Below, in pieces: positions 15,497 through 22,681 of a stretch of DNA of 64,000 nucleotides; position 1 is the stretch's first letter; the number at the start of each line of letters is the position of its first letter. Both the position numbers and the translations under genes were made by a program. Below the pieces are notes generated by a model that did no database searches, was not told the DNA's origin, and worked only from the letters and a program-made list of their open reading frames with translations. Source of the DNA: Thermaerobacter marianensis DSM 12885 (GTDB lineage Bacteria > Bacillota > Sulfobacillia > Thermaerobacterales > Thermaerobacteraceae). The DNA lies in contig NC_014831.1 in assembly GCF_000184705.1 (NCBI RefSeq), positions 2,542,001 to 2,606,000 on the forward strand, read 5' to 3'.

Positions 15497-15533
15497 TATA
15501 CTCAGAGGAGGGTTGTGCAAAGTTCTGTGCACA
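15497..15533 (+). promoter_or_regulatory. -10 element and operator-like palindrome before the HTH regulator
   Basis: TATACT at 15497-15502 is followed at 15514-15533 by TGTGCA-N8-TGCACA, a perfect 6-bp inverted repeat. The palindrome would overlap or closely follow the transcription start, and the regulator gene begins 28 bases later. No good -35 box was found. Autorepression by the downstream HTH protein is the simplest reading. Confidence 0.55.
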
Positions 15534-15561: not shown

Positions 15562-16245
15562 GTGGACCTGGTGCGGATCGGCGACAAGGTGATCGACCGG
15601 CAGCGGATCTACCGGATGGTCGACCGCATCCTGGAGCTGCGTGCCTCCGGCCTGTCCCAGCAGGATGTGGCCCAGGAGCTGGGCATCGACCGCACCCTGG
15701 TCTCCCGGCTGGAGAGCCTGGGCGAGGTGCGCCGTGGCCGGAAGCTGGGCCTGGTCGGGTTCCCCGTGGGCAACCGCCAGGCGTTGGAGGAGGTCGCCCG
15801 CAGCGAGGGCGTCGACTTCGTCTGGCTGCTCACCGAGGAGGAACGCCGCCGCTTCATCGGCGAGCGCAGCGGCGCGGCCCTGCTCAACGACCTGATGCTC
15901 CTCATCGCGCGGGCGCGGGAACTGGATCACCTGATCTTCCTGGGGTCCGACATGCGGATCCGGCTGGTGGAGGCGCTGCTCGGGCCCGACCGGGTCACGG
16001 GCATCCAGATCGGCACCTCGCCCATCACCGAAGACCGCTTCGTGGACCCGGAACAGATCCGCCGGCTGATCCGCCATCTCCGCGTCCCCCGGGACGAGGG
16101 CCGGCCGCCCCGGGACGGCGCGGCCACGCGGGCGGTGCAGGACGGAGATGGGGCAGCGGGCGGGGACTCGTCGCGGGGTGGAGCTTCGGTGGCCGGTGGC
16201 GCTTCGTCGCGCGACGGGTCCCCGGCAGGGGCCAGCGCCCCGTAG
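15562..16245 (+). CDS. Helix-turn-helix transcriptional regulator
   Basis: An N-terminal DNA-binding segment (YRMVDRILELRASGLSQQDV then AQELGIDRTLVSRLESLGEV) is a clear helix-turn-helix. The following alpha/beta domain (LGLVGFPVGNRQALEEVARS, DHLIFLGSDMRIRLVEALLG) looks like a ligand-binding or regulatory domain whose family I cannot name. The last 50 residues are Gly/Ala/Ser-rich and disordered. The GTG at 15562 has GGGAGG eight bases upstream. It is 121 bases upstream of the aminotransferase-reductase fusion on the same strand, so it probably regulates that gene and itself through the palindrome at 15514-15533. Confidence 0.8.
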   Translation: MDLVRIGDKVIDRQRIYRMVDRILELRASGLSQQDVAQELGIDRTLVSRLESLGEVRRGRKLGLVGFPVGNRQALEEVARSEGVDFVWLLTEEERRRFIGERSGAALLNDLMLLIARARELDHLIFLGSDMRIRLVEALLGPDRVTGIQIGTSPITEDRFVDPEQIRRLIRHLRVPRDEGRPPRDGAATRAVQDGDGAAGGDSSRGGASVAGGASSRDGSPAGASAP

Positions 16246-16366: not shown

Positions 16367-19312
16367 ATGCATCCTTTCCGGCAGTACGTCAACCCCCACC
16401 TGGGCGAGCTCCTGGAACAGATCCAGATGGATAAGCGCTTCGTGCGCGGCCAGGGCTGCTGGCTGTGGGACGAAGACGGCCGCCGCTACCTGGACTTCGT
16501 GGCGGCCTACGGCGCCCTGCCCTTCGGGTTCAACCCGCCGGAGATCTGGGCGGCCCTTGAAGAGGCCCGCCGGCAGGGCGAGCCGTCCTTCATCCAGCCT
16601 TCTTTCTTGAATGCCGCCGGCGAGCTGGCCCGGCGGCTCATCGAGGTGGCGCCCCCGGGCCTGCGGTACGTCACCTTCGCCAACAGCGGCGCCGAGGCCG
16701 TGGAGGCCGCCATCAAGCTGGCGCGGGCCGCCACCGGCCGGCCCCGGATCCTCTCCACCGAGAACGCCTTCCACGGCAAGACCTTCGGTGCCCTGTCGGC
16801 GACCCACCGCGCCGCCTACCAGGACGTCTTCTTCGCCCCGGCCGAGGGGTTCGACAAGGTGCCCTACGGCGACGTGGCCGCCCTCGAACAGGCCCTGGCC
16901 GCCCGCCCGGGCGAGTACGCCGCCTTCCTGGTGGAGCCGATCCAGGGCGAGGGCGGCATCGTGGTGCCGCCGCCGGGCTACCTGCGGGCCGCGCGGGAGA
17001 TCTGCCGCCGGCACGGCGTGCTGTTCATCGTGGACGAGGTCCAGACGGGCCTGGGCCGCACCGGAGCGCTGTTCGCGTGCCAGGCCGAGGGCGTGACGCC
17101 CGACGCCATGACCCTGGCCAAGGCCCTGGGCGGCGGGCTCATGCCCATCGGCGCCGTGCTCTGCACGGAAGAGGTCTACACCGAGGAGTTCGCCACCAAG
17201 CACTCCTCCACGTTTGCGGGCAACACCCTGGCCTGCCGGGCCGGACTGGCCGCCCTGGACCTCTTGACCCGGGACGATCAGGCCCTGGTCCGCCACGTGG
17301 CCGAGACGGGCGAGTACCTGCGCCAGGGCCTGCTGGCCATCCAGCGCCGCCATCCCCGGGTGATCCGGGAGGTCCGCGGTCGCGGCTTCATGCTCGGTCT
17401 CCAGTTCGGCGTCACCCGGGAGACCTTCCCCGGCAACCTGCTGGGCGTCATGGGCGAGCAGGAGCTCTTGACCCCGGTGATCGCATCGTACCTGCTGAAC
17501 GTGGAAGGGTTGCGGGTGGCGCCCACCCTCAACGGCGCCGACGTGATCCGCATCGAGCCGCCCCTCATCGCCACCCGGGAGGAGTGCGACTACGCCCTGG
17601 CGGCCATCGAGCGGGTGGTCGACCTGATCGACCGGGAGGACACCGCGGGCCTGCTGCGGCACCTGGTGGGGCAGGGCCGGGTGGGGCAGGACCGGCATGG
17701 CGCGACGAGCCCCGACCACGGCATGAACGGCCGGTCGGCTGCCATCGGGCGGGTGGTCGTGGGGCGCAGCGGCACCGGGGTCACCCGGGACGGGGACGGC
17801 GCGAGCCGCCGTGCCACCGGCGCCGGCGAGCTGCCCGCCACCGGTCGCGGCGGGCAGGTGGGAACCGGCACGGTCCACGGCGGGGCATCGCAAACCCCTG
17901 CCGCCGGTTCGTCCCGGGAAGAACCGGCCACGCCCTCCGACGACCCCGCTGAAGGGCGCTTTGCCTTCCTGGTGCACCCCGTCGACCTGGAGAACTATCC
18001 CGAGTTCGACCCCGGCCTGGCCGCCTTCACCCGGGAGGAACTGGCGGACCTGGCCGGCCGGTGGAACCACTTGCTGAAGCCCTTCCGCATCGGCCAGACC
18101 CGCGTGGTCTCCACCTGCGGCCGCACGGCCTACGGCGAGTTCTACGTGGTACCGCGCACCGCCGACGAGCTGCTGGCCATGCCGGCGCAGGAAGCCGTCG
18201 CCGCGGTGAAGGAGGCCCTGGACCTGGCCCGGGACGGTGGCGCCCGGATCGTCGGGCTGGGCGCTTACACCTCGGTGGTCACCCGGGGCGGGCTCCACCT
18301 GCGGGACGCCGGTGTGGCCCTGACCACCGGCAACAGCTTCACCGTGGCGGCGGCGGTGGAGGCCATCGACGAGGCCACGCGCCGGCTGGGCTTCCCCCTG
18401 GCGGAGAGCACGGTGGCCGTGGTGGGGGCGACGGGCGCCATCGGCCGGGCCACGGCCCTGCTCCTGGGCCCGCGGGTCCAGCGGCTGTTGCTTATCGGCA
18501 ATCCGGCCCGGCCCGAGCAGAGCCGCCGCCGGCTGTTGCGGGTGGCGGGTGAGATCTGCCGCCATGTCCTGGTCTCCGCCGGCCGCCCGTCTCCGGTGGG
18601 GCGGGCCGGCAGGGTCGACGACGGCGACCGGGACCAGGAGAACCATGGGGCGCCGCTCGGCGGGAGCGGTGCGGCGTTCTTCAACCGATTCGGCACGGCC
18701 GAGGCGGGGGAACTGGCGCCCCTGGCCGCGCAGTTGCTCGATTTCGGCGGCTGGCCCAACGCCGACGCTCCCGTGGAGGAGTTCGTCCGGCGGCTGGAGA
18801 CCTGGATGGCCCGGGGCCAGTGCCCGCTGGTCATCACCACCGATCTGGACGCCATGTTACCCCTGGCCGATGTGGTGGTCACGGCCACCAGCAGTACGGC
18901 CCATCTGGTGACGCCCGGCAACGTCAAGTTTGGCGCCGTGGTGTGCGACCTGAGCCGGCCCCCCAACGTGAGCCGGGAAGTGCGTGACGCCCGTCCCGAC
19001 GTGCTGGTCATCGACGGCGGGGTCATCGAGGTGCCGGGCCGGCCGTCCCTGGGGTGGAACTTCGGCTTCGAGCGGGGTCTGGTCTACGCCTGCATGGCCG
19101 AGACCATGATCCTGGCGCTGGAGCATCACTACCAGCACACGAGCCTGGGCGCGGACCTGAACCTGGAGACCATCCTCTGGCTTGAGGAGCTGGCCCGCAA
19201 GCACGGGTTCCGCCTGGCCCAGCTGCGCAGCTTCGACCGGCCGCTGCCCGACGAGGCCTGGGAGCGGCTGGTCGCCGCCCGGTCGGCGGTCCTGGGGTCG
19301 GCGGCCCGGTAA
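16367..19312 (+). CDS. Fusion of class-III aminotransferase with acyl-ACP-reductase-like (AAR) domain
   Basis: Residues 1-434 are a class-III PLP aminotransferase: FIVDEVQTGLGRTG with Asp223, TLAKALGGGLMPIGAV with the PLP-binding Lys252, and HSSTFAGNTLA. Residues 435-530 form a Ser/Gly/Thr linker. Residues 530-981 resemble cyanobacterial aldehyde-forming acyl-ACP reductase: GLGAYTSVVTRGGLHLRD, TTGNSFTVAAAVEAID, the nucleotide motif VAVVGATGAIGRATALL (about 683), VIDGGVIEVPGR, and YACMAETMILALE, where Cys909 aligns with the Synechococcus active-site Cys294. Predicted chemistry (inference): reduction of an acyl thioester to a fatty aldehyde, then transamination to a long-chain amine. GGAGGG precedes the ATG at 16367. 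The reductase domain carries an insertion at about 735-815. Confidence 0.85.
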   Translation: MHPFRQYVNPHLGELLEQIQMDKRFVRGQGCWLWDEDGRRYLDFVAAYGALPFGFNPPEIWAALEEARRQGEPSFIQPSFLNAAGELARRLIEVAPPGLRYVTFANSGAEAVEAAIKLARAATGRPRILSTENAFHGKTFGALSATHRAAYQDVFFAPAEGFDKVPYGDVAALEQALAARPGEYAAFLVEPIQGEGGIVVPPPGYLRAAREICRRHGVLFIVDEVQTGLGRTGALFACQAEGVTPDAMTLAKALGGGLMPIGAVLCTEEVYTEEFATKHSSTFAGNTLACRAGLAALDLLTRDDQALVRHVAETGEYLRQGLLAIQRRHPRVIREVRGRGFMLGLQFGVTRETFPGNLLGVMGEQELLTPVIASYLLNVEGLRVAPTLNGADVIRIEPPLIATREECDYALAAIERVVDLIDREDTAGLLRHLVGQGRVGQDRHGATSPDHGMNGRSAAIGRVVVGRSGTGVTRDGDGASRRATGAGELPATGRGGQVGTGTVHGGASQTPAAGSSREEPATPSDDPAEGRFAFLVHPVDLENYPEFDPGLAAFTREELADLAGRWNHLLKPFRIGQTRVVSTCGRTAYGEFYVVPRTADELLAMPAQEAVAAVKEALDLARDGGARIVGLGAYTSVVTRGGLHLRDAGVALTTGNSFTVAAAVEAIDEATRRLGFPLAESTVAVVGATGAIGRATALLLGPRVQRLLLIGNPARPEQSRRRLLRVAGEICRHVLVSAGRPSPVGRAGRVDDGDRDQENHGAPLGGSGAAFFNRFGTAEAGELAPLAAQLLDFGGWPNADAPVEEFVRRLETWMARGQCPLVITTDLDAMLPLADVVVTATSSTAHLVTPGNVKFGAVVCDLSRPPNVSREVRDARPDVLVIDGGVIEVPGRPSLGWNFGFERGLVYACMAETMILALEHHYQHTSLGADLNLETILWLEELARKHGFRLAQLRSFDRPLPDEAWERLVAARSAVLGSAAR

Positions 19313-19393: not shown

Positions 19394-19429
19394 CCCACGG
19401 GCTGAAGCCCCCGGGCGTAAGCCCGTGGG
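19394..19429. mobile_element. IS200/IS605-like terminal hairpin, no transposase left
   Basis: CCCACGGGCT (19394-19403) pairs perfectly with AGCCCGTGGG (19420-19429), with a smaller GCCC/GGGC pairing inside the loop. Hairpins of this composition are typical of the ends of IS200/IS605 elements. No TnpA or TnpB frame is recognisable nearby, so this would be a relic or a solitary end. A plain RNA hairpin is the alternative. Confidence 0.35.
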
Positions 19430-20071
19430 TTCCCTGAACGGGAGTTGTGAGGTCGGGGTTTGTGTGGGGGGAGTTAGGCTGGCCCCTAAGCGGGCCGGGC
19501 CGGGTCAGGCGGCCCGGGCCGCAACACCTCCAGCGCTGCGGCAGCGATGGGGAGGGCCCTCACCCCGTCGGCATTGCCCTGGTAGCCGCAGGCTACGCGC
19601 CGAAACAGCCCCTGCCGAGGCCGGTTGCGCGGGTTGCACGACCGCAGCGGAGGAGGTCCGGGAGGGAAGGGGAAAGTCGGGCCGGGGTCTGGCGGTAGCC
19701 CCCATGGGCGGTTGGAGCTGCCGGGTCGCTGGAATTTAGGCGGGTGATGCGGGGACGGGCACGGGGATGCGGTAGATGGCCGGGATGCGGTAGATGCCCC
19801 GGGCGACCCCGGTCACTTCGCCCGGGGTGTCTTCTTCGAACCTGGGGCGGCGGCACCCGGCCGGCCGGGTGCCGCCGTGCCGTCCCGGCCCGGCCGTCCC
19901 GGTCTGGTGTGCCCGGCGGGCCGGCCCCGGCCCCCTGTCCGCCGCCCCGCAGACCGGCTCGACGCCCTGTCGATTTCCCGGGAAATATGACGCGGCCGCT
20001 CCGACAGCCTTCGCCCCGTGCCACCCGCCGGCCGGAATCCCCACGCCCTCCGCGGAAGGCCAAGGCCCCCA
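19430..20071. other. 642-base region without a recognisable intact gene
   Basis: The frames present (for example the plus-strand one over 19447-19698) have no family resemblance. The region starts at the IS605-like hairpin and may hold decayed element sequence. It ends at the 3' end of queF. Near-repeats of GGTAGATGCC-like sequence occur around 19770-19800. Confidence 0.35.
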
Positions 20072-20491
20072 TCAGGCGGGGGGCCGGCCACGGCGGGCGG
20101 TGGCCTTGAGGCCAATGCCGCCGCGGGGATTCTGTTCGACCACCACCTCGACGTATTGGGGCTCCACCGCGCGGACGATGTCGTCGGCGATCTGCGCCGC
20201 GAGGGTCTCGCAGAAGGCCCCCTCGTCGCGATACGCCCAGAGGTAGAACTTGAGCGACTTCGACTCGATGCACCATTGCCGCGGGACGTAGGTGATGCGA
20301 ACCTTACCGAAGTCCGGCTGGCCCGTGCGCGGGCATACCGCCGTGAACTCGTAGGCCTCGAACTCCACCAGGTCGACCCGCGGAGCCGGGAACCGCTCCT
20401 GTTTCAGGATCGCGCGCGCTTCCGCCAGCGACCGTGGCCTGGGCAAGGGCCCGTAGGCGGGCAAGCGACCCGTGGCTTCCGTCCCGGTCAA
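20072..20491 (-). CDS. queF: NADPH-dependent 7-cyano-7-deazaguanine (preQ0) reductase
   Basis: QueF reduces preQ0 to preQ1 in queuosine biosynthesis. The 139-residue length is that of the short, FolE-like class. Signatures are YEFTAVCPRTGQPDFGKVRI, with the thioimide-forming Cys in AVCP, and the QueF motif ESKSLKFYLWAYRDEGAFCE that binds NADPH. The only start compatible with the frame is the TTG at 20491, preceded by AAGGGGGTG; a stop lies directly upstream. The gene follows the queuosine-precursor transporter gene with a 13-base gap, and the two form a queuosine operon. QueC, QueD and QueE are not in the window. Confidence 0.96.
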   Translation of the reverse strand: MTGTEATGRLPAYGPLPRPRSLAEARAILKQERFPAPRVDLVEFEAYEFTAVCPRTGQPDFGKVRITYVPRQWCIESKSLKFYLWAYRDEGAFCETLAAQIADDIVRAVEPQYVEVVVEQNPRGGIGLKATARRGRPPA

Positions 20492-20504: not shown

Positions 20505-21131
20505 TTACGCAGCCATTCCTTCCCCGTCTCCCACCGCTTCGTGTCCCCCGCGGCGCGTGGCCACCAGAAAGATCGGCGTGCCCAGCACGGACAGTGCGGC
20601 CTTGACCGCATACTGGGAGAGGATCATGGGCGCCAGGGCCGGCACCGTGCCGGCGAAGGCGATGGTGATGAACAGGGCGGTGTCCGCCCCTTGGGAGACG
20701 AGGGTGCTCAGGTTCTTGCGCACCCAGCGCGGTGCTCGCCAGCGCTCCCGGATGAGGCGGAAGATGTGGATGTCCAGGAGTTGCGAGGCCAGGTAAGCCG
20801 TGAACGACGCTACGACAAACCGGCCCGTCTGCCCCAGGACCGTCACATACGCCTCGTGCACCCCGGCGGCGAAGGGAGCGGGGGGCAGCACTTGCCCGGC
20901 GTACACCAGGGCCGCCGACAGAGCCTGGGCCCCGAACCCCAGGTAGACGGCCTGGCGTGCCCGCACAAATCCGAAGCGTTCGTGGATGATGTCCATGGTG
21001 ACGAAGGCCAGGATGTACGCCACGACCGCCGCCGGGACGAGAAAGGGACCCAACTGCACGACCTTTGCCGCGGTCACGTTGGACGTCAACAGGGCGGTGA
21101 CAAACAGGACGGTATAGGCGGTGAAGTCCAT
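20505..21131 (-). CDS. Queuosine precursor transporter (YhhQ family)
   Basis: This 208-residue membrane protein has about six helices. Family signatures are TALLTSNVTAAKVVQLGPFL near the N-terminus, VTMDIIHERFGFVRARQAVY, AYLASQLLDIHIFRLIRERW, and the conserved NLSTLVSQGADTALFITIAF. YhhQ proteins import preQ0, preQ1 or queuine across the membrane, and its coupling to queF supports preQ0 or another precursor as cargo. The ATG at 21131 is preceded by GGGAGGGATCCC. The ribosome site lies at the edge of a 25-bp tandem duplication. Confidence 0.92.
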   Translation of the reverse strand: MDFTAYTVLFVTALLTSNVTAAKVVQLGPFLVPAAVVAYILAFVTMDIIHERFGFVRARQAVYLGFGAQALSAALVYAGQVLPPAPFAAGVHEAYVTVLGQTGRFVVASFTAYLASQLLDIHIFRLIRERWRAPRWVRKNLSTLVSQGADTALFITIAFAGTVPALAPMILSQYAVKAALSVLGTPIFLVATRRGGHEAVGDGEGMAA

Positions 21132-21140
21132 GGGATCCCT

Positions 21141-21189
21141 CCCTTGCGGCTTCTGCAGGCCCTCTCCCTTGCGGCTTCTGCAAGCCCTC
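21141..21189. repeat. Two tandem 25-bp units in the leader of the queuosine transporter gene
   Basis: 21141-21164 and 21166-21189 are near-identical (one G/A difference) 24-base units separated by one base, each beginning CCCTTGCGGCTTCTGCA on the plus strand. On the mRNA each copy ends in an AAGGGAG ribosome-site-like sequence, and only the gene-proximal one is at a usable distance from the ATG. Confidence 0.85.
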
Positions 21190-21400
21190 GCCGCATGGCC
21201 GGCAGTCCAACATGCGGGACGAGCAGGGACCGTGTGCCGGGGAAGCCGCCAGCGGCCGCCGGTTCCGCAGCAGCCGCGATGACCGCCAGGACCTTTCAGG
21301 CGGCGCATGAAAGTATAGCGAAAACCCCGGTCGCGACCTCCCGGCCCGGAGGCGACGACCCGCCACCGGGCCGTTGTTGGCGGGCGATTCGGCGCATGAG

Positions 21401-22681
21401 TCATGCTTGGGCAGAAGGCATCGCCAGGACCGCCGACCCGTCGACCCGGCTGTGCTTGACGTCGTACAACGCCTGGTTTGCTTGATCGAACCCGTACGGG
21501 CGCACCGCCACCCGCAGGGGGATAGCGGCCGCCACCTCCATGAACTCCCGGGCATCGCGGCGGGTCACGTGGGCCACGGTGCGCACGACCCGCTCGCCGT
21601 GGATCAGCCGGTATGGAAAGGAAGGGATGTCGGTCATGTGAACCGCATTGATGACCACGGTTCCTCCCGGCCGCACGGCTCGCAATGCCAGCGGAACCAG
21701 CTCCCCGGCGGGAGCGAAGACGATGGCCCGGTCGCACAAGGGCGGCCGGCCACCCGCCGCCGGATCCGAGCCCTCAAGGCTGAGGGGTTTTCCAGTGTCA
21801 ATCCCGCCGCCCGCCCCGCCGGGCCCGGCGCTCTTGACCCGCGCCGTACCGGTCTTGCCCGCCGCGGTGCGCGCCTCACCGGCGGACGTGGGCGCCGTCC
21901 CGGCGGCCCTGGGAACCACCCCCGAGGCGCCGGCGCCCCCTTCCGGGCCCGCCGGAGGCCAACCATCTCCCGCCGTGCCCGTGGGGCGTGCCTTCCCGGC
22001 GGCCGGTTCGTCTGCGGCCAGCACCTCCGCGCTTCCGGCCCAGGCCGCGCCCAGCTCCAAGGCCAGGCGGCGGTGTCCAGGACTGCGGGTGAACACCACC
22101 ACCTCACAACCCCGGTGCCGGGCGACCTGGATCACCAGGTGGGCGGACGAGCCGAATCCGAACAGGGCCAGCCGCTCGCCCGGCTGCAGCCCGCTCAAGC
22201 GCAGGGCGCGGTAGCCGATGACGCCCGCGCAGAGCAGCGGCGCCGCCTCGGCATCGGTGAAGGCCTGGGGAATGGGCACGGTGGAGGCGGCAGGGACGAC
22301 CATCGCCTCGGCGTACCCGCCCGGAACGTGCAGGCCGGTAAAAGCCGCGTGCGGGCACAGGTTCTCCTCTCCGCGCCGGCAGGCCGGGCAGCGGCCGCAC
22401 GCGCGGTGCAGCCAGAAGGCACCACGCCGCTCCCCGACCCGAACCCCTGCCACGCCGGGACCGACGGCGTCCACCACGCCGACCACCTGATGGCCCGGGA
22501 TCACCGGATAGGACGGCGGCACCAGGTCGCCTTCGACCGTGTGGACATCGGTCAGGCACACGCCGCAGGCCCGGACCCGCAGCCGGATCTCGCCCGGCCC
22601 CGGCTCCGGCTCGGGAACCTCCGCGAGGCGCAGGGGCTGCGAGCCGGCGTCTGCAGGTCCGTGCAGCTGCCAGGCCTTCAT
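21401..22681 (-). CDS. Zinc-dependent alcohol dehydrogenase (MDR family) with internal insertion
   Basis: The N-terminal GroES-like domain has the catalytic zinc site (RACGVCLTDVHTVEGDL and PVIPGHQVVGVVD) and the structural zinc cluster CGRCPACRRGEENLC. The nucleotide-binding domain shows LALFGFGSSAHLVIQVARHR and resumes at AIVFAPAGELVPLALRAVRP. Residues 218-310 are an Ala/Gly/Pro/Thr-rich insertion inside the Rossmann domain, containing a one-mismatch copy of the GGACGAACC repeat. It should oxidise primary alcohols or reduce aldehydes with NAD(P). The ATG at 22681 follows GGGGGGAG. It could supply or remove fatty aldehydes, but nothing ties it to the fusion enzyme. Confidence 0.92.
   Translation of the reverse strand: MKAWQLHGPADAGSQPLRLAEVPEPEPGPGEIRLRVRACGVCLTDVHTVEGDLVPPSYPVIPGHQVVGVVDAVGPGVAGVRVGERRGAFWLHRACGRCPACRRGEENLCPHAAFTGLHVPGGYAEAMVVPAASTVPIPQAFTDAEAAPLLCAGVIGYRALRLSGLQPGERLALFGFGSSAHLVIQVARHRGCEVVVFTRSPGHRRLALELGAAWAGSAEVLAADEPAAGKARPTGTAGDGWPPAGPEGGAGASGVVPRAAGTAPTSAGEARTAAGKTGTARVKSAGPGGAGGGIDTGKPLSLEGSDPAAGGRPPLCDRAIVFAPAGELVPLALRAVRPGGTVVINAVHMTDIPSFPYRLIHGERVVRTVAHVTRRDAREFMEVAAAIPLRVAVRPYGFDQANQALYDVKHSRVDGSAVLAMPSAQA

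Follow-up and report, generated by a model that had tools for sequence, protein, structure and literature searches.

The fusion gene and its surroundings

The window, that is, the whole stretch of 64,000 nucleotides from Thermaerobacter marianensis DSM 12885 that was analysed, carries an uninterrupted open reading frame, free of internal stops, in which a class-III transaminase (TA) is fused to an acyl-ACP-reductase-like thioester reductase (TR). The gene is preceded by that of an HTH regulator, with a predicted operator palindrome upstream (Table 1). When the region upstream of the regulator was scanned for promoters, a full sigma-70 match was not found.

Table 1. Positions in the window of the fusion gene, the regulator and their features.
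Feature	Position	Strand	Basis or remark
TATACT, -10-like box immediately upstream of the operator	15497..15502	+	read by eye
Predicted operator TGTGCAAAGTTCTGTGCACA, copy of the class-wide GTGCACA-N4-TGTGCAC palindrome	15514..15533	+	conservation
HTH regulator (P0002), HTH_31/HTH_3	15562..16245	+	conserved core of about 175 aa
TA::TR fusion gene, 981 aa	16367..19312	+	single copy in its own genome
Class-III PLP transaminase (TA) domain, residues 25-418	16439..17620	+	Aminotran_3 (PF00202), E 5e-97; PDB class-III transaminases
Lys252, PLP lysine	17120..17122	+	invariant, 46 full-length homologues
Low-complexity linker, about 97 aa	17654..17947	+	pLDDT < 50 at 440-516
Acyl-ACP-reductase-like thioester reductase (TR) domain	17951..19309	+	sequence and structure matches
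GATGAIG nucleotide-binding motif (GxxGxxG), residues 687-693	18425..18445	+	glycines invariant
Disordered insertion within the TR domain, residues 741-780	18587..18706	+	pLDDT < 50; short or absent in homologues
Cys909, predicted catalytic cysteine, equivalent of AAR Cys294	19091..19093	+	alignment, invariance

Besides the regulator, the neighbours of the fusion are ABC transporter genes and a QueF-like gene (partly named by eye). Neither an acyl-AMP ligase nor an ACP gene was seen next to it, and a tambjamine- or prodiginine-type cluster was rejected, as such genes were not seen nearby. A functional link to proS, folate cyclo-ligase and M16 peptidase neighbours (named by eye) was also rejected, because this flanking is limited to one group of Syntrophomonadaceae-like genomes. 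On the 3' side of the fusion, a 46-bp inverted-repeat element (19394-19439, CCCACGGGCTGAAGCC...) resembles an IS200/IS605-type end, and its 3' part was found once in the genome. Further downstream lie the QueF-like ORF (20072-20491, minus strand) and a likely queuosine-precursor transporter (20505-21737), both recognised by eye only.

Domains and catalytic residues of the fusion protein

The C-terminal domain was matched by sequence to the acyl-ACP reductase (AAR) SeAAR (6jzq, E 2.6e-16) and to PigE (4ppm, E 1.6e-31), and Cys909, within the motif YACMAETMILALE, was aligned with Cys294 of AAR. Lys252, Cys909 and the glycines of the GxxGxxG motif did not vary among the 46 full-length homologues, and Cys909 was likewise invariant across 39 TR domains, separate TRs included. 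In the full-length AlphaFold model both domains were confident and disorder was confined to residues 440-516 and 741-780. An AlphaFold model of the TR domain had a mean pLDDT of 90, and its best match in the PDB was 6jzy, the complex of AAR with stearyl and NADPH (325 residues aligned at 2.7 Å, Z 37.7), followed by the carmabin TAD group at Z 33-35, with unrelated Rossmann enzymes down at Z 14. The domain therefore combines a whole-domain structural match to AAR with an equivalent of Cys294, which places it in the AAR fold family. The linker is much longer than the median of 30 aa found in 78 fusions, and therefore its length is a lineage-specific expansion.

These results agree with an earlier note on this DNA, which had described an intact class-III aminotransferase with Lys252 as PLP lysine, a 95-residue linker and an AAR-like C-terminal domain with Cys909 at the position of Synechococcus Cys294.

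Comparison with characterised enzymes

The closest characterised counterpart is PtTamH of the tambjamine YP1 pathway of Pseudoalteromonas tunicata, described in 2022, which converts C12-ACP to the C12 amine with NADH and L-Glu, does not accept C12-CoA, and yields detectable free aldehyde when L-Glu is omitted (PMC9594044). Like the window protein, it has an N-terminal class-III transaminase and a C-terminal AAR-like TR with the catalytic Cys in an AAR-like motif; a TA N-terminal to an AAR-like TR in one protein, together with the PLP lysine, GxxGxxG and the cysteine, gives the window protein the architecture and the catalytic residues of a TamH-type enzyme. PtTamH is a protein of 941 aa (K340/C887) encoded in the tambjamine cluster and fed by TamA (ligase-ACP), whereas the window gene comes with a regulator and an operator of its own and lies outside any tam cluster (TamA, bipyrrole genes). 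A TamH-like relative (L078), compared in place of PtTamH, was 27% identical to the window protein and had an extra segment in its TA domain.

PigE of the prodigiosin pathway (PDB 4ppm; NCBIfam NF053554) has homologous domains and also proceeds from thioester to aldehyde to amine, although its order is TR then TA, the reverse of the window protein, and its identity to the latter is low. The window protein scored 586.4 bits against NF053554, below the cut-off of 850 for this equivalog, and is therefore not assigned to it; apart from PigE, its best 25 NCBIfam matches were all transaminase families. The cyanobacterial AAR (6jzq/6jzy) shares with the window TR its fold and the position of the catalytic Cys, but it stands alone, is coupled to the oxygenase ADO and is about 26% identical to the window TR in a structural alignment. 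Against the AAR equivalog TIGR04058, a separate TR relative scored 142.7 bits, with a cut-off of 449.7.

The fold, the invariant catalytic residues and the precedent of PtTamH give good support to a two-step route in which a single protein turns an acyl thioester into an aldehyde and then into an amine. In such a reaction, Cys909 of the TR domain would accept the acyl group of acyl-ACP and the domain would reduce it with NAD(P)H to the aldehyde, which the PLP domain would convert to a primary alkyl amine by transamination with an amino acid, probably Glu. Overall, the window protein is probably a bifunctional fatty-amine synthase under a conserved operator and regulator; the chain length, acyl carrier, cofactor and product given for it are predictions. 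The earlier note had proposed this one-protein route, and in outline the route is likely correct; its NADPH is less secure, as PtTamH uses NADH, and the channelling of the aldehyde to the transaminase that it put forward is a prediction, to be read beside the free aldehyde seen with PtTamH. The note was wrong to imply that a fatty-amine synthase in one protein would be new, because PtTamH already is one.

Distribution and ancestry of the fusion

The same domain order had been proposed as something to look for in other genomes, and at least 78 relatives with TA::TR were found. Of the 539 candidate relatives detected on the genome contigs scanned, 80 loci were retained and 78 fusions measured, a few of them representing the same genome twice. 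The fused TR domains formed one clade apart from the separate TRs (support 100/98), as would fit a single origin of the fusion and its later transfer to Pseudomonas, Rhodococcus, Chromobacterium and others. One locus with a Bacillota-like fusion, regulator and operator lies on a contig labelled Deltaproteobacteria (L011), which is probably mis-binned.

A chance or decayed fusion with one inactive domain might be suggested by the long low-complexity linker and the disordered insertion of the window species, yet both active sites are invariant, the TR domains of the fusion, which is shared by at least 78 loci, belong to a single clade, and the operator has been conserved, so that this explanation is extremely improbable.

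Within the GTDB class, separate TR genes were commoner than fusions. In Alkaliphilus, Geosporobacter and one Atribacterota genome, TA and TR were encoded by separate adjoining genes. The 57%-identical fusion of Pseudomonas and Chromobacterium has genes for an acyl-AMP ligase and a fatty-acid desaturase next to it, with a free-standing ACP (phosphopantetheine carrier) as well at the Pseudomonas locus, which holds the nearest orthologue outside the Bacillota; the fusions of Ramlibacter and Nocardia are also flanked by AMP-binding ligases. The ligase, carrier and desaturase neighbours in Pseudomonas follow a logic that resembles TamA-TamH of the tam cluster. At L037:1900-14027 (with ACP) and at L043, acyl-AMP ligase, desaturase, TA::TR, a GNAT protein and a MacB-like exporter are in one operon, and the Pseudomonas/Chromobacterium operon is likely an unexplored fatty-amine natural product cluster. 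In Rhodococcus, TA::TR adjoins mce-type (MlaD) genes (L044, L046-L049, L052-L055, L057, L059, L060), and at some loci a gene that looks MmpL-like by eye is present as well.

A long-chain product is suggested for the window enzyme by the AAR fold, by TamH and by the Pseudomonas neighbours. The same two steps could instead start from a thioester that is modified or not fatty (a short, dicarboxylic or polyketide-like one) and give a specialised metabolite or cofactor-like product rather than a lipid base. PigE uses such a substrate, a 3-acetyloctanoyl (branched keto) thioester, and its amine product cyclises (PMC8341465); coelimycin biosynthesis has been cited as an analogous TR-aminotransferase pair (PMC9594044). 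However, the Bacillota gene lies outside biosynthetic clusters, as none was found around the fusion in the Bacillota neighbourhoods inspected, the TR domain is structurally closest to the stearyl-binding AAR, and orthologues elsewhere are beside acyl-AMP ligase, ACP and desaturase genes, which makes a non-fatty substrate unlikely.

A conserved operator ties the regulator to TA and TR genes

A palindrome with the consensus TGAGCACAATCTTGTGCACA was found upstream of the regulator genes, and regulator gene and palindrome recur together across the GTDB class and in other Bacillota; the regulator and palindrome reported before the fusion in the earlier note are thus both real and conserved. The window palindrome by itself, at 3 mismatches, is not striking, and it is convincing because of its conservation and through nothing else. 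With one mismatch at most over the 14 fixed positions, it was the sole site in the 2.84-Mb genome, and a reversed control pattern gave none. In a second genome of the genus (G002), a recognisable operator before the regulator was not found.

When GTGCACA-N4-TGTGCAC was searched with one mismatch allowed, few sites per genome were obtained. Among the 75 sites listed, from 38 genomes, 22 lay before the regulator, 18 before a separate TA and 6 before a separate TR, i.e. 46 of the 75 with about 0.1 expected. At 22 fusion loci without an adjacent regulator, a perfect operator was present 20-51 bp upstream of the fusion; at the fusion loci of Pseudomonas and Rhodococcus it was absent. The operator thus ties TA, TR, fusion and regulator genes together. 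As an independent link, at the level of regulation, this indicates that TA and TR work in the same pathway also where they are encoded apart. The HTH protein would repress its own operon as well as the TA/TR or fusion genes.

The regulator core was present in 112 of the 154 genomes of the class, in one copy each. A protein of about 300 aa, found in 152 of the 154, is usually encoded next after the regulator (e.g. L131:3243-4145), and a frequent gene order in the class is regulator, this protein, a separate TR, and then greA- and lysS-like genes (by eye). In genomes with a fusion, the order is regulator, 300-aa protein and fusion, or the regulator directly before the fusion, as in the window; in the latter genome the protein is encoded elsewhere, outside the window (G000:C1:154472-155365). 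In four genomes where it is apart from the regulator, it carries the same operator. It had no Pfam or NCBIfam matches and no convincing relatives in the PDB.

TR alternates with an alpha-oxoamine synthase

In regulator-positive genomes that lack TR, the operator precedes a gene for an alpha-oxoamine synthase of the serine-palmitoyltransferase (SPT) family. When this enzyme was searched at E <= 1e-120, it was found in 21 of the 154 class genomes, spanning ten families and all TR-negative; the window's own genome lacks this orthologue group at the same threshold. In 18 of the 21 the operator was within 300 bp upstream, and in one more it preceded an upstream gene of the same operon. TR was present in 127 of the 154, and the two never co-occurred (Fisher p 7e-21, with relatedness ignored).

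The alpha-oxoamine synthases and TA::TR have unrelated folds and chemistry, but both lead from an acyl thioester to an amine-bearing product, and therefore functional displacement is the simplest reading. Since the operator stands before TA, TR and fusion genes, and TR and alpha-oxoamine synthase exclude each other, the regulon probably makes an acyl-derived amine via two interchangeable chemistries, the synthase providing an equivalent amine in the related lineages. This product could be short-chain instead: the KBL and BioF profiles scored as high as SPT, all under their cut-offs, and the family takes in short-chain (KBL) and dicarboxylic (BioF) enzymes, which lends some weight to the non-fatty substrates considered above.

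The alternation also bears on whether TR frees a fatty aldehyde for alcohol, wax or alkane formation, with the transaminase mainly scavenging or detoxifying aldehyde. Such a role would resemble that of cyanobacterial AAR, which supplies the aldehyde-deformylating oxygenase, and separate TR genes are more numerous than fusions in the class. It is nevertheless very unlikely, as separate TA genes stand under the same operator as TR and an amine-forming synthase displaces TR, both pointing to amine as the output.

On the preferred reading, a fatty-amine synthase, the amine would serve as the long-chain base of a membrane lipid or of a similar product. Extended to the regulon, this reading suggests only tentatively that the HTH protein, the operator and often the 300-aa protein may serve a Bacillota system that makes a fatty-amine building block via TR plus TA, separate or fused, or via an SPT-like alpha-oxoamine synthase; if true, Gram-positive bacteria would have a long-chain-base or aminolipid system that has yet to be described. 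The kind of enzyme is already known from PtTamH and PigE, and it is the regulon and its alternation with alpha-oxoamine synthase for which no description was found in the literature searched. Fatty-amine synthesis by a single protein, characterised so far in pigment-antibiotic pathways only, would be extended to a wide range of anaerobic and thermophilic Bacillota, and the thermophile homologue is a possible useful biocatalyst.

A literature search with TTGTGCACAA gave no paper on such an operator among those listed, and no account of the HTH/palindrome control circuit was found in the literature searched. Searches on long-chain amines with acyl-ACP reductase and on Thermaerobacter lipids gave nothing relevant, and one on quinate 5-dehydrogenase in Moorella gave nothing. 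The strict alternation under one regulator predicts an amine-bearing lipid or similar compound, a testable point; judging from the literature searched, such a compound has not yet been sought in these bacteria. The operator makes the scattered genes of the pathway findable. Examples of operator-borne alpha-oxoamine synthases are at L155:3296-4636, L151 (1857-3221, minus strand) and L148:3044-5673, and in some TR-less genomes the synthase is accompanied by an MDR-type dehydrogenase.
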